Below the pieces are notes generated by a model, which saw only the letters and a list, made by a program, of their open reading frames with translations, ran no database searches and was not told the origin of the DNA. DNA of 36,016 nt from contig JACUUN010000014.1 of assembly GCA_014859265.1 (NCBI GenBank), positions 1 through 36,016 on the forward strand. The letters are read 5' to 3'. How positions within the stretch are numbered: the stretch's first letter is position 1; the number at the start of each line of letters is the position of its first letter. This document shows, one piece after another, positions 2,402 to 33,004 of this stretch. The DNA is from Coriobacteriia bacterium (GTDB lineage: Bacteria; Actinomycetota; Coriobacteriia; Anaerosomatales; SLCP01). The position numbers and the translations under genes were made by a program.

Positions 2402-3322
2402 ATGCAGAAGCAGACCATCGTGGTTGCGCTGGGCGGGAATGCGCTGCTCAAGCGGTCGGAACCGATGACTGCGGAGACGCAGCGCAAGAACGTCCGGATC
2501 GCGGCGCACGCCCTTGCGCCCATCGCGATGGAGCACAATCTGGTCCTCGCACACGGTAACGGCCCTCAGGTCGGGTTGCTCGCGCTTCAGGCAGCGGCTT
2601 ACGCGGATGTCGAACCATATCCGCTGGACGTTCTCGGAGCACAGACCGAGGGCATGATCGGCTACGTGATCGAACAGGAGCTCGGCAACCTGCTTCCGTT
2701 CGAGAAGCCGCTCGCGACCATTCTCACGATGGTCGAGGTCGACCCGGCCGACGAGGCGTTTTCAAACCCGACGAAGTTCGTCGGGCCAACGTACACCAAG
2801 AGGGAGGCCGATCGCCTCTGTAAGAAGAAGGGCTGGGTCTTCAAGAAGGACGGCGGTGCCTGGCGCCGCGTTGTGGCCTCTCCCGAGCCCAAACGCATCT
2901 TCGAACTGAACCCCATCAGATGGCTTATCGAGAAGGGTACGGTCGTCATCTGCGCGGGCGGTGGCGGCATCCCCACGGCCTACCTTCCGGATGGCTCGAG
3001 GACGCTGGTGGGCGCAGAAGCCGTCATCGACAAGGACCTGGCCAGCGCGCTTCTCGCTGGTGAGCTGGGTGCCGACCTGTTTGTGATGGCGACCGATACC
3101 GACGGCGTCTATCTCGAGTGGGGCACCCTCACGCAGCGCCTCCTCGGGCGCGTGACCGCCGATGAGATCGCATCCTATGAGTTTCCGAGCGGCTCTATGG
3201 GACCCAAGGTCGAGGCGGCCGTGCGGTTCGTCAGGGCGACAGGGAAACGCGCAGCTATCGGGAGTCTGGACGACATCGAACGTATTGTCGCGGGTGAGGC
3301 GGGCACGAGCGTGATCCCGTGA
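2402..3322 (+). CDS. arcC: Carbamate kinase
   Basis: A cytosolic enzyme that makes ATP and carbamate from carbamoyl phosphate and ADP, the last step of arginine deiminase or agmatine/allantoin catabolism. Its 306 residues match the family's usual length of about 310. Landmarks are the N-terminal [10 protein letters not shown] loop, [10 protein letters not shown], the [13 protein letters not shown] segment, NPTKFVGP, the glycine-rich [11 protein letters not shown], the [10 protein letters not shown] motif, MATDTDGVY, and [13 protein letters not shown] near the end. ATG 2402 has GAGGAG about seven bases upstream. The stop overlaps the next gene's start (TGATG), so translation is probably coupled to the M28 peptidase. 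Arginine deiminase is encoded 27 kb away on the same strand; the ornithine carbamoyltransferase normally placed between them in arc operons is absent here. The kinase could therefore also serve another carbamoyl-phosphate source. Confidence 0.95.
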
Positions 3323-19437: not shown

Positions 19438-19776
19438 GGTTGCCTCCCTGGTCGTTGTCGAGTTCTTACCCCGTATGACGAAGGGGTGAGGCTGGGGGTT
19501 CGGGGTTGGTCGAGGTATCCAGGCATCGGTAAGGGGGCGGGGATTCAATCAGTTGACATCTATATGTTGTCCACACCCGAGTCCGCACAGTTCTGGGCTA
19601 GCCGCGGCAGTGTGGTACCGGGTAAGCGCTGCAATCATCCGAGCGAAGGATGGTGGGAGTTGTGCACATCGCAGAAAATATGGTTCTTGGGATACAAACC
19701 AACAGCTGTGAGGCGATGAAGCTCCTCGAGGGGCTTTGCTGTGGTAGGAGCGAACACCTTATGGGAGCAAGGCCGT
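19438..19776 (+). promoter_or_regulatory. Structured leader before the multiheme cytochrome gene
   Basis: 339 bases without a recognisable gene, less GC-rich than its surroundings. It holds CATCC/GGATG (19636-19640 with 19648-19652, seven-base loop). It also holds a compound stem-loop at 19698-19745: ACC and ACAGC pair with GCTGT and GGT, enclosing AAGCTCC-TCGA-GGGGCTT. A perfect TTGACA at 19553 lacks a matching -10 box at 16-18 bases. The compound stem-loop ends about 30 bases before ATG 19777. Leaders of multiheme cytochromes are sometimes riboswitches; this one does not show the conserved cores of the cyclic dinucleotide classes I know. Confidence 0.4.
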
Positions 19777-22700
19777 ATGCCAGGTGCTGAGCGGTTGGAT
19801 GGTCATAACGAGAGCTGGGCCGCGACGGGCTCCATCTCGAATGGCCGGGGACGATGGCAGCGTCTGGGAAGACGCGGCCAGACGGTCCTCGTGCTGGTTG
19901 TGGTCTCTGTCGTGGCAGCGGCCGGTGTGGCGATTGCGTTTCGTCCCGATCCGCCTCCATATGCGAATGCCCCCACCAGCCTGCTTGTGAATGACACGAC
20001 AAGCGTGACGGCTGGCATCACGACCCAGACGGGCAATCCCCGGGAGATAGTGTCACAGGTAGTTCTCAGCTTTCCAGCTAACACCGACGTGTCCGCCATC
20101 GATGAAACATCCGTGAGCTTCACCCACGAGGATGCCGGGACGATCAGCTTCTCCGTCAATCGCGACGTAACCTCGCGCACGGTCACCATCGACATCGATC
20201 CCTACACCGTGACGAGCGGCTCCAACCCCCGTGCTGTCTCGGTCACCTTGAGCGATCTGAGAAACGCCTCGGTACCGGGTCAGTACACATACTCTGTGAC
20301 GTTCGTGAGCAACAGAGATACGGCCTCGCTGACAAGCGATCCGTATGCGCTCGAGCCGAACCAGGTCGCTCTAGGGGTGGGCGTCATTACGCTCAGCGAC
20401 TACGTCGAGAGTAAGCCGAGCTCCTATGCGGTTCCGATCACGCTGGGCATGAACGGCAGGCTCGCCGCTGATGCTCAGCCGGCTGGGGTCACGACGCCAA
20501 ACGAGATATACGCCGGTTTCCCGGAACCCTTCGCGCTTCCGACGGCTCCGTCGGCGTCGAGTGTGACGGTGAACGGGTACTCGCTCGACGAGGCTCCGAC
20601 CGTCTCCGGTCAGACTGTGACGATCAAGATCCCTGCAGGGCTGACCATACCCGGTGGCGACATCGCGACGGTGGTCTTCAACGAGTCGTTTGGCATCATT
20701 AATCCCACTGCAGGTACGTACGAGCTTCAAGCGAGTACGAGTGCCGAGGTTCTTCCGGGCACGAGTCAGTCTTTCACGATTACGGGTGTCCCGACGATTC
20801 TAACGGTTACCTCGGCAAATCAGCCTGCTGCGGCCACCGTGGGACCCGGACGTTCGCAGGTCGTCGACGGCTTCACGCTTGCTCGCACATCGGGTCCGGC
20901 GGGTATCGAAGTGAGCTCAGTGGCCATCGAGAACTCGGGCACAGCCCCCTCGTCAACTGTGTCGGGCGTCTACGTGTACCGGGACGACGGAGACGGCATT
21001 TTCGGCGCTGAAGATACCGTTCTCGCGCTGGCGGGCGCGCAGTTCGTTGGCAGTACAGCCGAGGTCTCCTTCTCATCGCCGGAGTCCGTGACCGATGTCG
21101 CTCGGCAGTACTGGGTGGTGTACGAGTTTGCCAGCACTGCCTCGCATAGCGCGACCGCGAGTTCACGTGTCGCCGATGTCGCTCACAACGCTGGCGGTCT
21201 CGCGAACAACGCAGTCACGGGATCGACGTTCCTCGTAGACACCACCCCGCCCACCGTCACCCTCACCGTCGTCCCGGCCGAGCCCGACGGGCTGGCGGGC
21301 TTCTACGTGAGCACGCCGCTTCTCACGGCGAGCACCGACGAGACGGCCACCGTCTTTTACAGCTTCGTGTCGGACGGCGGCCCGTGGACGCTTTGGGCCG
21401 ACCCCTCCTCGCCCGTCGCGCCGGCCGAGGGCGTCTCGACGCTGCACTACTACGCCGTCGATGCGGCGGGCAACGCCAGCCCGGTCGCCGCGCGCGGGTT
21501 CTCCGTCGACACGACGGCGCCTGACGCGCCCGCCGGCGTGAGCGCGACGGCCGCCGGCGCGGCCGCGATCGACGTGAGCTGGGACCCGGTCCCGGACGCC
21601 ACGAGCGGGCTTTCCCACTACACGCTCTACCGCTCCGACGGCGCCACCGTCACCGTCACCGGCGAGACCTCCCACACCGTCACCGGGCTTGACCCGGATA
21701 CGGCCTACGGCTTCTACGTCACCGCCGCCGACGCGGCCGGCAACGTCTCCGCGCCAAGCGCCACGGCGAGCGCGACGACGGGCCCGGGCGACACCACCCC
21801 GCCCACCGTCACCCTCACCGTCGTCCCGGCCGAGCCCGACGGGCTGGCGGGCTTCTACGTGAGCACGCCGCTTCTCACGGCGAGCACCGACGAGACGGCC
21901 ACCGTCTTTTACAGCTTCGTGTCGGACGGCGGCCCGTGGACGCTTTGGGCCGACCCCTCCTCGCCCGTCGCGCCGGCCGAGGGCGTCTCGACGCTCCACT
22001 ACTACGCTGAGGACTCCCGCGGAAATACGACCGGCTTGAACAGTCAGGACTTCAACGTTGACACGGTCAGTCCTGACGCACCTGCAGGCGTGACCGCCGA
22101 GGCGTACGGATGGCTCTCGGCGCTCGTAACCTGGAGCGAGGTTGTCGACGCCACGAGCGGCACCGACTATTACGAGGTGCTTGTCGGCGATGAAGTCCGG
22201 GCGACGACGGCCGAGATGAGCACGGTCGTCGCAGACCTAGAGTCGGGTGTCGTACACACGATAACGGTGCGGGCAGTCGACAGGGCCGGTTGGGTTTCAG
22301 ATCTCAGTAGCGCTGTCACGGTCGAGACGGAAGAGCCTCCGAGCTACGCCAGCCCCCCGTTACACGCTGTGGTCATCGCCCCGCGCGCCTCGGAGGTCTT
22401 CGTTGCGTGGAGCAGGCCATCCGACACGATCGGTGACGTGACCTACAATATCTACCGGCGCTCCTCGGAGGCTAAGCCGCTCGCCCGCATAGGCTCGGTC
22501 GTGGGCATCGGCAATAGGTCGTTCGTAGACATGTCGACGGCATCGTCTGCCTCTTACTCGTATGCAATCGCCGTTGAGGATGACCGGGGCGCAGGCCCGC
22601 CGAGCGAGATCTCGACGACCTCGGTAGTGCTCACTCCCGCTCCGCCCGCTCTCCGGGGACTAACATCGGCAGTGACCACATCAGTTCCGGGTGAGGTGCG

Positions 22701-24174
22701 ACTCAGCTGGACCGCGGCGAGCGTTCCCAACGTCGTCGGCTACCTCGTGTTCAGGGCGGAGGCGAGCGGTGGAGCCGTCACAACACTGACGCCAGAGCCG
22801 GTGAACGCGCCTTCCTACGTCGACGACACGGTCTCGCCGTACCGGCGCTACTGGTATTCGGTGGTGTCGGTCGACACGAGTGCTGCTGTAGGCCTGCCCT
22901 CCCCGGAGGTCTATGTGCGCGCCGTGAAGACACCATCACCCTCCAGCCCGCACTCACTCTTTGCCGAGCCCGGCAGCAACCGATGTCAACTCTGTCATAC
23001 CATCCACAATGCACCCGGCAGCGCGAACCTCCTCTCGGTAGCCGGCCCGAACGAGCGTGCGCTGTGCGAGACGTGTCATGACGGCACCGGAGCCACGGCG
23101 ATCACGGCGGACATGGAGGGTCCTCCGGTGACGTTGGACCAGGAGCCTGGTGGCGGCACTTCTCACTCGCTTGGGGAGGGCGGCTCGCTCAGCTGTGCAT
23201 CGTGCCATGATCCTCACGGCCCCGGCACTTCATCCGATACACGGAGACTCCTGAGGGCTGGTGACGCCACTGGAGGCAATGACTTCTGCTACGCATGCCA
23301 TGGCGAGGGAAGCGGGCTGGCCCGTGGCGACATGAGACCGTTCGAATCCTCCGGCCACGACTCCGGAATCACTGCGCCATCCGGCGGGAGCGAGACCACC
23401 TGTCTTGCCTGCCACGAGTCCCACGGCTCACCGAACGAGAGCTTGCTGAAGTACCGTAGCCTGAACGATTGTCTAAGGTGCCATACTCCGGCAGCTGAGA
23501 ATGACGACAGCTTTGACATCCTCTCGCTGCTCTTCTACGGCCCCGACAACCGGGTGCGCCATGACGTCCTTCCAGGTGACCAGGAGCAGAACGGCTCACA
23601 GATGACGTGCCAGAACTGCCACAACGCCCATGGGACAGCCATTCTCGTTGACCCGTACAATCCGTCGCTAACGGGCACCTGGGCGGGCAGCGCGAGTGAC
23701 TTCTGCTTCTCGTGTCATGACGGTTCGCTGCCGTCCGCCCAGGACACGCTTCCATGGGCGTTACCGCCTCTTGGTCCGGGCGGGGCCACCACTACCGTCG
23801 ACATCAAGGCCGCGTATCTCACTACTGACCCTCATGGTGCCGCAGGTTCGGCGGAAGCGACCGGCTCGGCCCGGTTCCTCCGCTCGGAAATGGGCTTCAC
23901 TGCTGGCAGCGTGCTTGAGTGCGCCACGTGTCATGAGCCGCACGGCGCAGCGAATCATTACGCCCTACGTGGTGACGTGACCTCGGCCGACGGCACATTC
24001 ACGCAGCGTGGGCTGGTCGTCTATGGTATCGCTGACGAACTCGGGGGCGGCTATGACACACGCTTCTTCTGTGCCGCCTGTCACGACATGCCGGACGATG
24101 CGCACCCGGGGCCGGACCCGATCCCCTTCCCGACCGACTGCACGGAGTGTCACACTCATACTGCTGGCAATTAG
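19777..24174 (+). CDS. Surface-anchored multiheme c-type cytochrome with fibronectin III domains
   Basis: A 1465-residue protein; GTG 19741 is an alternative start but lies inside the leader stem-loop. Order: a charged N-terminus, one membrane helix (about 36-55, TVLVLVVVSVVAAAGVAIAF), and Ser/Thr-rich beta domains to about 480. Two copies of an Ig-like module follow (about 488-560 and 672-744), with fibronectin III domains between and after them (FnIII-like starts near 575, 765, 860 and 955). A C-terminal heme domain has eleven CxxCH motifs from about 1070 to 1459: CQLCH, CETCH, CASCH, CYACH, CLACH, CLRCH, CQNCH, CFSCH, CATCH, CAACH and CTECH. Several are followed by DPH/ESH/NAH/EPH, as in the doubled-CXXCH family. 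The layout suggests a wall-spanning stalk presenting an electron-transfer head outside a monoderm cell. Cytochrome maturation genes are not in the window. Extracellular electron transfer is inference; binding or structural roles are possible. Confidence 0.88.
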   Translation: MPGAERLDGHNESWAATGSISNGRGRWQRLGRRGQTVLVLVVVSVVAAAGVAIAFRPDPPPYANAPTSLLVNDTTSVTAGITTQTGNPREIVSQVVLSFPANTDVSAIDETSVSFTHEDAGTISFSVNRDVTSRTVTIDIDPYTVTSGSNPRAVSVTLSDLRNASVPGQYTYSVTFVSNRDTASLTSDPYALEPNQVALGVGVITLSDYVESKPSSYAVPITLGMNGRLAADAQPAGVTTPNEIYAGFPEPFALPTAPSASSVTVNGYSLDEAPTVSGQTVTIKIPAGLTIPGGDIATVVFNESFGIINPTAGTYELQASTSAEVLPGTSQSFTITGVPTILTVTSANQPAAATVGPGRSQVVDGFTLARTSGPAGIEVSSVAIENSGTAPSSTVSGVYVYRDDGDGIFGAEDTVLALAGAQFVGSTAEVSFSSPESVTDVARQYWVVYEFASTASHSATASSRVADVAHNAGGLANNAVTGSTFLVDTTPPTVTLTVVPAEPDGLAGFYVSTPLLTASTDETATVFYSFVSDGGPWTLWADPSSPVAPAEGVSTLHYYAVDAAGNASPVAARGFSVDTTAPDAPAGVSATAAGAAAIDVSWDPVPDATSGLSHYTLYRSDGATVTVTGETSHTVTGLDPDTAYGFYVTAADAAGNVSAPSATASATTGPGDTTPPTVTLTVVPAEPDGLAGFYVSTPLLTASTDETATVFYSFVSDGGPWTLWADPSSPVAPAEGVSTLHYYAEDSRGNTTGLNSQDFNVDTVSPDAPAGVTAEAYGWLSALVTWSEVVDATSGTDYYEVLVGDEVRATTAEMSTVVADLESGVVHTITVRAVDRAGWVSDLSSAVTVETEEPPSYASPPLHAVVIAPRASEVFVAWSRPSDTIGDVTYNIYRRSSEAKPLARIGSVVGIGNRSFVDMSTASSASYSYAIAVEDDRGAGPPSEISTTSVVLTPAPPALRGLTSAVTTSVPGEVRLSWTAASVPNVVGYLVFRAEASGGAVTTLTPEPVNAPSYVDDTVSPYRRYWYSVVSVDTSAAVGLPSPEVYVRAVKTPSPSSPHSLFAEPGSNRCQLCHTIHNAPGSANLLSVAGPNERALCETCHDGTGATAITADMEGPPVTLDQEPGGGTSHSLGEGGSLSCASCHDPHGPGTSSDTRRLLRAGDATGGNDFCYACHGEGSGLARGDMRPFESSGHDSGITAPSGGSETTCLACHESHGSPNESLLKYRSLNDCLRCHTPAAENDDSFDILSLLFYGPDNRVRHDVLPGDQEQNGSQMTCQNCHNAHGTAILVDPYNPSLTGTWAGSASDFCFSCHDGSLPSAQDTLPWALPPLGPGGATTTVDIKAAYLTTDPHGAAGSAEATGSARFLRSEMGFTAGSVLECATCHEPHGAANHYALRGDVTSADGTFTQRGLVVYGIADELGGGYDTRFFCAACHDMPDDAHPGPDPIPFPTDCTECHTHTAGN
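21238..21455 (+). repeat. Internal repeat of cytochrome gene, copy 1
   Basis: A 218-base stretch matching 21790-22007 at all but one base that I could find (G at 21443, C at 21995). It encodes DTTPPTVTLTVVPAEPDGL through STLHYYA, one Ig-like module. Near-perfect identity at synonymous positions means a recent duplication or gene conversion. The stretch is markedly more GC-rich at third positions than the flanking parts of the gene. Confidence 0.95.
21790..22007 (+). repeat. Internal repeat of cytochrome gene, copy 2
   Basis: Second copy of the 218-base repeat, shifted by 552 bases (184 codons), so the frame is kept. The two copies bracket a fibronectin III module (21456-21789) with the same GC-rich codon style. 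The sequence diverges sharply after 22007, where it becomes EDSRGNTTGLNSQDFNVD. Confidence 0.95.
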
Positions 24175-24672: not shown

Positions 24673-26988
24673 CTACCGGAGCGGTTTGAAGACCGCACCC
24701 GCCGGACGCCGCGTCAACGGGCTCATCGAGGGTACGAAGGTCACTCGTACGTCAGCGGAGTAGATGAAGCGCCCGGTCTTCGTGGCACTCTCGATGATGG
24801 CCGAGAGCCAAGCGGCCGGTGTCTCTCCGAACACGTGCACCACCACGCGGGGTTCGGGTTCGGCGACTGCGTCCCACACGCCCGCGACCCGTCCGTCCAC
24901 GAGTACCACCGATGACGCGCGGCCGGCCGTATCGAACACGAAGGGGCGGTACGCGTCATCGATAAAGCGGCCCCGCCGCCGGTATCCCATGAGCAGCGAA
25001 TCGAGGCAGGGTAGCATCGCGATCGAGGGGCTCGGCGGCGCGCCGACCGACGCGAGCTCATCGACGTCTGCGGCGTGCATCAGGAACTCGCCCTCGGTGC
25101 CGAGGAGAACCACACTCATGATCTCGTCGCCCAGCGTGTCGAGCGCCCTGCGTGTGCGCTTGCGACCGAGACCGGTCCACCACGCGGCGTCCTCGAAGAG
25201 CACGGGCCCGAACGCGCGGACGTGTGCTCGCGTGAGCGTGACGTCGGCGTCATCCTGTCGGACAGAGTCGAGCCTTATGTCAGGTAGGGCGTCGGCAAAC
25301 GGGATGTAGGTTGCGCGCCGGTCGTGCCAGTCGAACACCGGGCGGTCGCGCAAGAGAATACCCTCGGCGCACATGAGGTTCACGGCAGCAGCCACGTCGA
25401 GGTCAAGGTCGACGCGCTCGCGAATAGCGGCTGTCGTTAGAGGGCCGTCTGCGAGCGCGCCGAGTATCGCTTCGCGAGCATTATCGAGCGCGGTGCCGGA
25501 GACACCGCGGAAGGTTGCGTAGGTGCGGGCGTAGTTCACGACCGGCCGGTTCGTGGCGGCGAAGACAACGGGCAGCATGTCCGTGCGCACTAGGTAGACC
25601 ATGCCGCGCATGCAGCGGATCCTCGAGAGCGAGCGCCGCTCGTAGAGCGCCGAGTCAAGTCGTTCGGGGGTCATGCCGCCGAACCTGGCGGCCAGGGCGA
25701 GGTACGGTGTCGTCGGCGTCATGAACTGGGCCCCGACGATGTCGCCGACCACCGTCTCGATGCTGGCCGGCTCCCACAGAGCGCCGAGGTGATGTCGGGC
25801 GAGTATGCGGGTCACCGCGCGGAGCGAGGGAAAGACGGGAACAGTCGTGGGCACGGGGCACGGGGGCACTTCTTTCCGGCGCGGCGGCAGGGCGGCGCTC
25901 CTGCCGCTCTGCGAGCTCGGAAGGGCCTCGACGTCGACCGAGGCGATTTCCTCGGCCAGGTCGGTTACGCGCGACAATGCGACCAGGCAGCGCGCGGTGG
26001 CGAACGGCGAGGGCTGTTGCTTCCGCCCGAACGAGAAGTCCTCGAAGCCGCGGCAGACGCGCCTAGGCGTGACCGTGCCGTCACCGTCGAAGTTGTACGC
26101 AATCAGACACGCGGCGAGCTCGGCGACGGAGCGGCGGTCCTCCGAACGCGCACGTGGCCCTCTCCATACCTCCGGATACCTTCCGACGGTTTCGAGGGCC
26201 CACAGGACGTCGTACCAGAAATTCGGCCACTTCACGCTCTTGAACTGGTATCCGTGACCGAAGCCATACGGCCGCTCGTCCGTGCGTCTGCGCCAGATCT
26301 CCAGCGGGGTGCGTGCCGCCTCGGCGATACCTGACGGGCGCTCGTCATGCGGCAGATGAGAGAAGGCCCGCAGCCCCTCGAGGGTGACCTGCGGGCACAT
26401 ATCGGCTCCCCGGCCTGGCATGCGAAAGAAGGCGTGCTGCTCCGGCACGCACTGCCAGGCACGCCCCTGCGGGGTGGCGGCGAGGTCGGCGACCATGCGC
26501 CCGAGCGCCCGGCGGACCCCGCGTTCCCCGCCGCGACCGAAACGGAGCAGCACGTCGACGACGACGTTCGTGTCGCACAGAAGCGAGCCGGTCTCCGGTT
26601 TCCGGCGACCTCCGTCCGGCCCCGCTGCGTGAAAGCGCCCACGCGCGTCCTGCTGCTCGAGCATGCCATCGAGCAGCTCCTCCACCCGTTCGAAGTCACC
26701 GGCACCCACACCCATATCAGCGAGCAGGTTAAGCCGGTTGGGAGGGAATCCGGGGCTGTGGTGGCCGGTTGTGCCCTCGCCGGAGTCCCATGCGGGCAGG
26801 TCGTCGACGAGCCGTCTCACCGTTTCGTTATGCAGGAGATTCGAGTGTGCGGCGTTGACATCGGGGTCGCCGGGCGGGCGCGCGAGCACTCCCGTGAGCG
26901 TCGCCCACACCGCGTATGGCTCGTCCGAGCCGAGGAGCCAGGGCACGGGGTCGGCGCCGACCAGCTCCGTGAAGTCGAAGTCAGTCAT
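24673..26988 (-). CDS. Fusion: alpha/alpha-toroid region plus AlkZ/YcaQ-like winged-helix domain
   Basis: A single uninterrupted frame of 771 residues with two unrelated halves. Residues about 1-375 resemble a prenyltransferase/squalene-cyclase-type helical toroid, with repeated helix pairs and HSPGFPPNRLNLLADMG, EQHAFFRMPGRGADMCPQVT and FGHGYQFKSVKWPNFWYDVL. A low-complexity linker (about 375-400) follows. Residues about 400-771 match the winged-helix HTH_42 family of AlkZ/YcaQ DNA glycosylases: VVGDIVGAQFMTPTTPYLALAARFGG, RIRCMRGMVYLVRTD, DAAWWTGLGRKRTRRAL, and PCLDSLLMGYRRRGRFIDD near the end. Where bacterial AlkZ-type enzymes carry Q-x-Q (or Q-x-D) this protein has GAQF, so the first Gln is Gly. 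Known relatives unhook DNA crosslinks or repair bulky alkyl adducts. It is the last gene of a four-gene operon, six bases after the radical SAM gene. Confidence 0.75.
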   Translation of the reverse strand: MTDFDFTELVGADPVPWLLGSDEPYAVWATLTGVLARPPGDPDVNAAHSNLLHNETVRRLVDDLPAWDSGEGTTGHHSPGFPPNRLNLLADMGVGAGDFERVEELLDGMLEQQDARGRFHAAGPDGGRRKPETGSLLCDTNVVVDVLLRFGRGGERGVRRALGRMVADLAATPQGRAWQCVPEQHAFFRMPGRGADMCPQVTLEGLRAFSHLPHDERPSGIAEAARTPLEIWRRRTDERPYGFGHGYQFKSVKWPNFWYDVLWALETVGRYPEVWRGPRARSEDRRSVAELAACLIAYNFDGDGTVTPRRVCRGFEDFSFGRKQQPSPFATARCLVALSRVTDLAEEIASVDVEALPSSQSGRSAALPPRRKEVPPCPVPTTVPVFPSLRAVTRILARHHLGALWEPASIETVVGDIVGAQFMTPTTPYLALAARFGGMTPERLDSALYERRSLSRIRCMRGMVYLVRTDMLPVVFAATNRPVVNYARTYATFRGVSGTALDNAREAILGALADGPLTTAAIRERVDLDLDVAAAVNLMCAEGILLRDRPVFDWHDRRATYIPFADALPDIRLDSVRQDDADVTLTRAHVRAFGPVLFEDAAWWTGLGRKRTRRALDTLGDEIMSVVLLGTEGEFLMHAADVDELASVGAPPSPSIAMLPCLDSLLMGYRRRGRFIDDAYRPFVFDTAGRASSVVLVDGRVAGVWDAVAEPEPRVVVHVFGETPAAWLSAIIESATKTGRFIYSADVRVTFVPSMSPLTRRPAGAVFKPLR

Positions 26989-30461: not shown

Positions 30462-31730
30462 GTGGAGCAGATCGGGGCATACTCCGAGGTCGGACGTTTG
30501 CGGACGGTACTCGTGCACCGGCCGGGCCGGGCGCTCGAGCGGCTCACGCCACACAATCGCGAGGAGTACCTTTTCGACGACCTCGTGTGGGTTGAGCGCG
30601 CCCAGCGCGAGCACGACGACTTCGTCGCCGCTCTGTGTGACCGCGGGGTCGAAGTGCTCTACCTCCGCGACCTGTTGGTCGAGGCTCTGGAGGTGTCTGC
30701 GGACGCCCGCTACCACATCGTGGCCCGCGCGGTCTCCTCTTACACGGTGGGCCCCTCGCTCGTTCAAGACCTGAGGGAGTACCTCGTTGGTCTGCCTGCC
30801 GGGCGGCTTGCCGATGCACTGATCGAGGGGTTGCTCATCGGCGAGATCGATGGGCTCGACCCGGCCGAGCTTGCCCGCTACTCCCTCGGCGCCGTGCTCA
30901 CCGACGCCGACAGCTTCGTGCTGCCGCCCTTGCCGAACACTATGTTCACGCGTGACTCCAGCGCCTGGCTCTACGGCGGGGTCGTGCTGCCGCCGCTCTT
31001 CTGGCACGCACGGAGGATCGAGGTCGTGAATACCTCGACGATCTACCGGTATCATCCACGCTTCGCCGAGGCGGATTTCCGCTTCTGGTATCCGCCGGAT
31101 GGTGACGCTGAACGGTTTGCCGTCGAAGACCTCGGGCAGGGCGTCTCGCTGGAGGGCGGCGACATCATGCCAATCGGCAACAAGACCGTCCTCGTGGGCA
31201 TGGGAGAGCGCTCGACCGGGCGGATGGTCGAGCACATCGCCCGGTCGCTGTTCGCCGCGGGCGCCGCCGAGCGGATCATCGCGTGCCGCATGCCCCAGGA
31301 CCGCGCATACATGCACCTCGACACCGTGCTGACCTTCGTCGACCGTGACGCCATGACGCTCTACCCGCGGGTCATAGAGGCTACGAAGGTCTACAGTGTC
31401 CGCCCGGGTGAGCGCCCCGACGCGTTCGATATCACCGAGGAGCCGGGTCTTCTCGAGGCGCTCGCCGATGCGCTCGACGTAGACGCTATGCGAGTCGTGC
31501 CGACCGGAGGCGATGCGTTCCAGGCCGCCCGCGAGCAGTGGGACGACGCCAACAACGTCGTGGCGATCGAGCCCGGCGTGGTGGTCGGCTACTCGAAGAA
31601 CACCCACACCAACGCCGCGCTCAGGGCGGCCGGCATCGAGGTCATCGAGATCGAGGGCTCCGAGCTCGGCAAGGGCCGGGGCGGCTGCCACTGCATGACC
31701 TGCCCGATCTCGCGCGACCCGGTCGAGTGA
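30462..31730 (+). CDS. arcA: Arginine deiminase
   Basis: A 422-residue cytosolic enzyme turning L-arginine into L-citrulline and ammonia; the family averages about 410. The start GTG 30462 has GGGGAGGAG about six bases upstream. Marks are the N-terminal GRLRTVLVHRPG, PLPNTMFTRDSSAW (substrate Asp), SLEGGDIMPIGNKTVLVG, and the end GRGGCHCMTCPISRDP, where Cys411 should be the nucleophile; the extra Cys409 is a small oddity. With arcC it gives the start and finish of a pathway that yields one ATP per arginine and raises pH, but ornithine carbamoyltransferase, an antiporter and an ArgR/ArcR operator are not visible here. It lies behind the DUF454 gene and converges with the heliorhodopsin gene after 34 bases. 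Confidence 0.95.
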   Translation: MEQIGAYSEVGRLRTVLVHRPGRALERLTPHNREEYLFDDLVWVERAQREHDDFVAALCDRGVEVLYLRDLLVEALEVSADARYHIVARAVSSYTVGPSLVQDLREYLVGLPAGRLADALIEGLLIGEIDGLDPAELARYSLGAVLTDADSFVLPPLPNTMFTRDSSAWLYGGVVLPPLFWHARRIEVVNTSTIYRYHPRFAEADFRFWYPPDGDAERFAVEDLGQGVSLEGGDIMPIGNKTVLVGMGERSTGRMVEHIARSLFAAGAAERIIACRMPQDRAYMHLDTVLTFVDRDAMTLYPRVIEATKVYSVRPGERPDAFDITEEPGLLEALADALDVDAMRVVPTGGDAFQAAREQWDDANNVVAIEPGVVVGYSKNTHTNAALRAAGIEVIEIEGSELGKGRGGCHCMTCPISRDPVE

Positions 31731-31764: not shown

Positions 31765-32523
31765 CTACGTCGGCACGAGCGTGTTGGCGAACACCAGCCA
31801 CGCCAGAAGCGACTTCGCACTCAGACTCAGCAGCACGTACGCAGCCTCACCGAAGAGGTAGTCGCGCCACGGTCCCACCCGCTTGTACTGGAGCACCATG
31901 TTGATCGCGAAGCTGCTGAAGAACACGAACATCGACACGAAGATCCAGTAGACGAACGCTGGCGGGTTCGCCTCCGATCCGGGGCTCCAGACATAGAAGC
32001 CGATGGCGAGCCAGGGCACGATCCCTGTCAGGCACCCGAAGAGATACGGCATCCAGTTCGGACGGCCCGGTTCCTCGTAGTGTTCCATGAGCAGGCCGAA
32101 GAGGATCATCGATGCGTTCACGCCGAAGATGGCCAGCAGCGCGGCGATGTCGAAGATGCCCGGCAACAGCGCGATGAGGACGACCATCAGCGATGAGCTC
32201 AGCGAGTACTCGATCCAGCGAGCGTAGTTGCGGTTGCGCTTGAGGTTCCTCACGTACCATGGGTAGACGCCCGGAGAGGCGATCGTGAAGTGGGCGAGCG
32301 CGGAGAGGAAGATGAACGCCGCGACCGCAAAGCCGAGCGGGATCTCAAATAGGGTCTCAGGCGGCCCGGGCGGGGTGCCGGGAGGTCCTTGCAGGAAGCC
32401 CGCGGTCACCGGCAGGGCGAAGTCGTTCGAGAGGGCGGCGATCGCCACGCCCTGGCCGAAGTGGAAGAGTCCCATCACCACGTTGTAGACGCGCAGACGC
32501 TTGAACCGCGCTTCCTCGGCCAT
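31765..32523 (-). CDS. Heliorhodopsin
   Basis: A 252-residue retinal protein with seven membrane helices; ATG 32523 has AGGAG eight bases upstream. The helix-7 lysine for the retinal Schiff base is Lys237 in LLSLSAKSLLAW, and the helix-3 counter-ion is Glu105 in ARWIEYSLSSSLM, both heliorhodopsin hallmarks. His21 and His78 fall exactly two residues before the His23 and His80 positions of the well-studied heliorhodopsin 48C12, as does Glu105 against its Glu107. Heliorhodopsins are inverted in the membrane relative to other rhodopsins (N-terminus inside), have a slow photocycle, do not clearly pump ions, and are found mainly in monoderm bacteria and archaea; their roles remain debated. No carotenoid or retinal synthesis gene is in the window. 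The gene stands alone, divergent from a MoaD/ThiS-like gene. Confidence 0.9.
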   Translation of the reverse strand: MAEEARFKRLRVYNVVMGLFHFGQGVAIAALSNDFALPVTAGFLQGPPGTPPGPPETLFEIPLGFAVAAFIFLSALAHFTIASPGVYPWYVRNLKRNRNYARWIEYSLSSSLMVVLIALLPGIFDIAALLAIFGVNASMILFGLLMEHYEEPGRPNWMPYLFGCLTGIVPWLAIGFYVWSPGSEANPPAFVYWIFVSMFVFFSSFAINMVLQYKRVGPWRDYLFGEAAYVLLSLSAKSLLAWLVFANTLVPT

Positions 32524-32692
32524 GCCCGACACTCCTCTCAGCGCGGCTCCCCGTCCAGGGCCCCTCGATCTAACTCATGCTGGCAGGTGTATACCCGTGC
32601 GGCGTACCACGGGGACGCTCCGCCTCCGGAATCGGCCGAGGGGTATCTACTCCGCAGCGACTCAACGTTCATACACTCGGGAGAGAGACGAC

Positions 32693-33004
32693 ATGACACC
32701 ACCTGCCACGGTCCGCATGTTCGGGCTGCTCTACTCGATCAGGCAGGAGCGTGGTCTTCCATCGGTGGTCGAGCTCGACCTGCCGGAGGAGGGCGTCTCG
32801 GCGCGCCAGATCGCCATCGACCTCGAGCTGCCCGTGGACGACATCGAGGGCGTCTTCTGCAATCACGTCGTGCACAGCCTCGATCACCGCATCAGGCCGG
32901 GCGATCGTGTCGCGTTCGTCCCCCCCGGCACGCCGGGGCCCCATCGCTTCCTGCTCGGACTTTACCGGGTAGGGAAGGAAGATGCGGGGAACGCTGCAGG
33001 GTGA
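32693..33004 (+). CDS. MoaD/ThiS-like beta-grasp protein
   Basis: A 103-residue soluble protein; ATG 32693 has GGGAGAGAG about six bases upstream. TVRMFGLLYSIRQERGL, VVELDLPEEGVSARQIAIDL and FCNHVVHSLDHRIRPGDRVAFVPPG give the strand-helix-strand order of the ubiquitin-like MoaD/ThiS group (a Mut7-C-associated relative is also possible). The usual C-terminal Gly-Gly is not at the end: after VPPGTPG the chain continues PHRFLLGLYRVGKEDAG and ends NAAG. It may therefore not carry sulfur, or it may need trimming. No E1-like MoeB/ThiF gene is adjacent. It is divergent from the heliorhodopsin gene and meets the histidine kinase gene tail-to-tail with one base between. A sulfur-carrier role is plausible but unproven. 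Confidence 0.72.
   Translation: MTPPATVRMFGLLYSIRQERGLPSVVELDLPEEGVSARQIAIDLELPVDDIEGVFCNHVVHSLDHRIRPGDRVAFVPPGTPGPHRFLLGLYRVGKEDAGNAAG

Follow-up and report, generated by a model that had tools for sequence, protein, structure and literature searches.

An inverted orientation in the membrane is the defining trait of the heliorhodopsin (HeR) family. The described proteins to which the HeR analysed here can best be compared are 48C12 from an uncultured freshwater actinobacterium (PDB 6su3, 6su4, 6uh3, 9ljj) and TaHeR from a Thermoplasmatales archaeon (PDB 6is6, 7u55, 7clj). HeRs have been found to modulate a photolyase (PMC9769723), a glutamine synthetase (PMC9529153) and an ABC transporter (PMC11109279), and a role in light or oxidative stress was proposed previously (PMC8612252). 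SDR-linked HeR operons represent one of ten groups of HeR neighbours (PMC11109279). HeRs also occur in anaerobes: the proteins of Thermococcus, Mesotoga and Dehalogenimonas were expressed and bound retinal (PMC7807009), MORN-HeRs were described in anaerobic Firmicutes (PMC8612252), and further HeRs are encoded in Bathyarchaeota (PMC7110647). The presence of HeRs in anaerobic monoderms is thus already established.

Here, we analysed a window (the whole stretch of 36,016 nucleotides, contig C196) from a genome of the order Anaerosomatales (OPB41), class Coriobacteriia, for which we found no earlier report of a HeR in the literature searched. The host genome has a size of 2.34 Mb and is 97.7% complete, with 255 contigs and an estimated contamination of 4.2%; the genomes G038 and G056 belong to the same genus. 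The HeR gene and its surroundings are listed in Table 1.

Table 1 Features of the window around the HeR gene, with positions counted from the first nucleotide of the window.
Feature	Position	Strand	Evidence or remark
Arginine deiminase (ADI), convergent neighbour, not an operon partner	30462..31730	+	PF02274, 383 bits
HeR gene, 252 aa	31765..32523	-	PF18761, 339 bits; NF038020, 332 bits; 48C12, E 4e-79; model TM 0.94-0.95 to 6su3/6su4
Ribosome-binding site AGGAG, 8 nt 5' of the HeR ATG	32532..32536	-	read from the sequence
Spacer between the HeR and ThiS-like genes, which diverge	32537..32692		should hold the HeR promoter here
ThiS/MoaD-like small protein (weak match), divergent neighbour	32693..33004	+	PF02597, 18.3 bits; cut-off 22.5

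The HeR reading frame runs on the minus strand from an ATG at 32523 to a TAG stop codon at 31765-31767 and contains no internal stops. Its start codon is supported, since the AGGAG motif precedes it by 8 nt and GAGAGGAGTGTCGG, located 5' of the ATG, is conserved between the window species and a genus mate (L110). The protein matches the Pfam heliorhodopsin family PF18761 over the entire profile (positions 1-242 of 242, 339.2 bits, E 1.6e-101, cut-off 26.7) and the NCBIfam HeR equivalog NF038020 (E 2.1e-99, cut-off 100), both far above the cut-offs, and it aligns over its full length with the 48C12 sequence from the PDB at about 50% identity. No match to PF01036, the family of type-1 microbial rhodopsins, was obtained for the protein in Pfam at E 0.001, and a PF01036 search of the window genome revealed no type-1 rhodopsin. 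In the order, the sole PF01036 match (G029) was the HeR of that genome cross-matching, and a type-1 rhodopsin was therefore rejected. The preliminary description, which had been made from the sequence and claimed an intact HeR gene with a good ribosome-binding site, is confirmed in both respects. We regard it as virtually certain that the gene encodes a genuine full-length HeR, and the protein is an ordinary member of the known family.

All of the residues K237, E105, H21, H78, R102 and S233 are present. As claimed beforehand, H21, H78 and E105 align with the corresponding positions of 48C12 at an offset of two, and K237 aligns with the lysine in TM7 of 48C12, in this case at an offset of four following a two-residue insertion in 48C12. 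The Schiff-base lysine K237 forms an SxxxK motif in TM7 together with S233, and the counter-ion E105, which corresponds to E107 of 48C12, lies in TM3 within RWIEYSL. Both positions are invariant in the HeRs compared, with the retinal lysine kept in 89 of 89 unique HeRs reaching TM7 and the counter-ion glutamate in 91 of 91. The two histidines (H23 and H80 in 48C12 numbering) are both replaced by leucine in 19 of the 91 HeRs (L074, L078, L082, L084-L086, L088-L094, L097, L098, L101, L103-L105), which form one well-supported clade of Dehalococcoidia/Thermoleophilia type and usually carry EYF in TM3 and KA in TM7.

The structure model, generated with AlphaFold2 from 31 natural homologues (pLDDT 88, pTM 0.83), displays seven long helices and an extended loop 1 with the strands E36-41 and E56-62. 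It superimposes on 48C12 (6su4) with a TM score of 0.95 and an rmsd of 1.4 Å, with scores of 0.94-0.95 and 52-53% identity in the structural alignment across the 48C12 structures. The window HeR shares with 48C12 the lysine, the glutamate, the two histidines and the strands in loop 1, but unlike 48C12 it belongs to a member of the Coriobacteriia of anaerobe type. TaHeR has the same fold (TM 0.90-0.93), but its host is an archaeon and its identity to the window HeR is 46%. Non-HeR rhodopsins reached TM scores of at most 0.65 by query length. If the N-terminus is placed inside, 13 lysine or arginine residues are predicted in the cytoplasmic loops and none in the opposite loops, a positive-inside pattern pointing to the inverted orientation with a cytoplasmic N-terminus.

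HeR genes were identified in 41 of the 69 Anaerosomatales genomes (~60%), whereas the 231 remaining Coriobacteriia genomes searched had none. In a tree of 89 HeRs, 33 of the 34 sequences from the order were located in one branch together with two other entries (support 84/89), and the window HeR clustered with its genus mates (support 99/97), which argues for a mostly vertical inheritance within Anaerosomatales. A divergent HeR with 51% identity to the window HeR (L115, G003:C1:1590230-1590961) is placed on a long branch outside the main group of the order, which suggests a separate acquisition. Pairwise dN/dS ratios were 0.10-0.13 in comparison to the four closest relatives tested and did not exceed 0.25 in comparison to the rest; from this we conclude that the HeR is under purifying selection.

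The two described Anaerosomatales isolates are obligate anaerobes of subsurface origin with many multiheme cytochromes (PMC9686372). No heme-copper oxidase was detected in the window genome or its genus, which, together with the family and fold matches, bears out the proposed HeR in a probable anaerobic monoderm. In the order as a whole, 15 of 69 genomes encode a heme-copper oxidase, including the HeR-bearing G014, G032, G046 and G136, so that an anaerobic lifestyle is inferred for the window genus but cannot be extended to all Anaerosomatales. The multiheme electron transfer that had been suspected for the genome is supported by a domain search, in which a 1477-aa protein (window 19741-24174, plus strand) showed a multiheme CxxCH region with an MtrC/MtrF-like match C-terminal to fibronectin III domains; it is likely to be a cell-surface electron-transfer protein. 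On the minus strand (24673-26988), a 771-aa ORF carries a C-terminal AlkZ-like DNA glycosylase domain (PF06224), its first 400 residues have no Pfam match, and it may be a fusion or a frame accident. The combination of a HeR with such a lifestyle had been called a surprising ecological mix. As a novelty this is not supported, because HeRs of strict anaerobes, and of anaerobic monoderms in particular, have already been published, and HeRs are common among the Anaerosomatales (41 of 69). The window HeR resembles those of Dehalogenimonas, Mesotoga, Thermococcus, anaerobic Firmicutes and Bathyarchaeota in its probably anaerobic host, but carries no MORN or Zn-finger fusion.

Carotenoid cleavage to retinal by known enzymes requires O2. 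Across all 69 Anaerosomatales genomes, members of the phytoene/squalene synthase family (7 of 14 controls positive), RPE65-type carotenoid oxygenases (two controls positive) and Blh (the profile was shown to work on genome G320) were absent. None of the known retinal or carotenoid genes searched is therefore present in the order, and the window genome itself has neither the phytoene synthase nor the carotenoid cleavage enzyme of an own retinal synthesis. Incomplete retinal genes are also a feature of Bathyarchaeota (PMC7110647); what the present analysis adds to the published HeRs of anaerobes is that phytoene synthase is missing throughout the order. Outside the order, a PF00494 match was found in 7 and Blh in 1 of 30 HeR-bearing genomes, so a missing retinal pathway is common among HeR hosts. 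From the lack of known retinal genes it follows that the chromophore is either scavenged or derived from an unrecognised route, and for the order scavenging would be the simplest solution. That this order of mostly anaerobic bacteria maintains a HeR under selection without scavenging, whether through an unrecognised oxygen-independent route to retinal, through another chromophore or because the opsin works without retinal, appears doubtful to us. The coexistence, across the order, of a HeR under selection with the lack of every known carotenoid gene deserves further attention, and the occurrence of the HeR in ~60% of the genomes of an order without phytoene synthase or a known retinal-forming oxygenase makes the chromophore source of anaerobes testable.

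In a first alternative, the apoprotein would function without retinal, e.g. as a membrane scaffold or a sensor of small molecules, and its light function would be vestigial in an order that cannot make retinal. The absence of phytoene synthase, Blh and RPE65 from the 69 genomes and the O2 requirement of known retinal-forming cleavage are in line with this. The subsurface origin of the two described members, i.e. anaerobes from an environment in which light is scarce, speaks against a light role as well (PMC9686372). However, the lysine is present in every HeR reaching TM7 and the counter-ion in all HeRs, including the order members examined, and purifying selection is strong. A lysine left without retinal would be expected to drift, and we consider a retinal-free function rather unlikely. 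Even less probable is an unrecognised, perhaps oxygen-independent, route to retinal or an analogue within the order. Aurantimicrobium minutum produces retinal without blh or diox1 (PMC7734400), and genus mates of the window species encode a retinol-dehydrogenase-like SDR 2.5 kb from the HeR. Yet A. minutum has carotenoid genes, so its precedent does not explain an order that lacks even phytoene synthase, with which carotenoid synthesis begins, and the retinol-dehydrogenase reading is a match at the level of the SDR family to a gene that does not lie beside the HeR in the window species.

Overall, we favour as the best explanation, with reasonable though not high confidence, a true HeR with scavenged retinal that serves in non-pumping signalling of light or photo-stress. 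The protein would be an inverted seven-helix, probably dimeric, retinal-binding photoreceptor, whose apoprotein would acquire all-trans-retinal, or a closely similar compound, from other organisms that produce it, and which would absorb green light at about 530-556 nm, as other HeRs do. A slow, non-pumping photocycle would lead to a conformational change that is passed to a protein partner, and the signal might warn an oxygen-sensitive cell of light or photo-oxidative stress. As in HeRs with tested partners, signalling would most likely proceed via protein contacts rather than pumping. As regards the combination of scavenged retinal with a use as light or photo-stress sensor, we see the chances as evenly balanced. 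A light-driven ion pump or channel, which would energise a fermenting or metal-reducing cell, finds a parallel in viral HeRs, some of which conduct protons (PMC9448325), but is very improbable, since hydrophobic residues seal the tunnel of 48C12 at its two ends (PMC6951262) and the window HeR closely follows 48C12.

The HeR had been described as lying beside ADI and a MoaD/ThiS-like gene rather than photolyase or retinal genes. The ADI assignment is firm, whereas the MoaD/ThiS-like one is weak, with a score below the cut-off. The contrast with photolyase or retinal genes is true of this contig, but the ADI adjacency is a feature of the genus plus one genome, as it was otherwise found only in G038, G056 and G084. 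Regulation of ADI by the HeR, which the shared adjacency in these genomes might suggest, is highly unlikely because the two genes converge tail-to-tail, implying separate transcripts, and their adjacency is not conserved in other loci of the order; for the same reasons ADI was rejected as a general functional partner. An order-wide conserved HeR operon was likewise rejected, as the neighbourhoods vary across loci. Scans for a sigma-70 promoter consensus and for terminators at the HeR locus found none. An ORF on the plus strand at 2402-3322, presumably a carbamate kinase, is located 27 kb from ADI, which could mean that the genes of the ADI pathway lie in separate places of the genome. A contaminating contig, for which the 255 contigs and the estimated contamination of 4.2% would leave room, can be dismissed, since two further genomes of the genus share the downstream block (ADI, DUF454, adenosine deaminase and further genes) at 73-91% identity and the HeR groups with its genus mates in the tree (99/97).

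Upstream of the HeR, the genus mates differ from the window species. Between the HeR and the ThiS-like gene, G038 and G056 carry about 3.9 kb with a GltS-like transporter, the retinol-dehydrogenase-like SDR mentioned above and an NAD(P)-binding NmrA/DUF2867 SDR; the latter has the same orientation as the HeR and lies upstream of it, at a distance of 29 bp from the HeR match. The ThiS-like gene is located 4.6 kb from the HeR in the genus mates. The two SDR genes just upstream of the HeR in the genus mates are absent beside the window HeR, and no copy of the DUF2867-SDR was found in the window genome. The genus mates resemble the published SDR-linked group (PMC11109279) in their same-strand SDR, a likeness at the level of the SDR, and the window species differs from that group in lacking the gene. 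A DUF2867-SDR also adjoins the HeR, or lies within 2.4 kb of it, in Chloroflexota and Acidimicrobiia (L046, L059, L070, L048, L062, L071, L095, L083, L096). Because this adjacency recurs in distant lineages, the arrangement in the window species probably reflects a loss. The DUF2867-SDR, encoded repeatedly next to or near HeR genes in both Actinomycetota and Chloroflexota, is a concrete candidate partner for a family of mostly unknown function.

For the favoured scavenging photoreceptor, the candidate partner in the closest relatives would thus be the DUF2867-SDR enzyme encoded directly upstream. In the window species, the HeR would be transcribed alone and its partner would have to be encoded elsewhere, because the DUF2867-SDR is gone. 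The genes around the HeR differ between the loci of the order, so no one partner is constant. SOUL, TspO, DUF1295, pirin and MarR genes lie beside the HeR in other relatives, and photolyase was not among the 25 commonest of 148 Pfam families in 149 neighbour proteins. At the genome level, photolyase is present in 19 of the 41 HeR-bearing and 5 of the 28 HeR-free genomes of the order (p 0.02, with kinship ignored). The HeR neighbours and the photolyase frequency fit a theme of light or oxidative stress. Photolyase and DUF2867-SDR are both kept in G038 and G056 and both absent from the window genome (G000), so the link to photo-stress is indirect for the window species. In G102, paralogous small proteins of ~98 aa starting with a KQNCWEF motif are encoded on either side of the HeR (L112:5816-6112 and L112:7113-7406).
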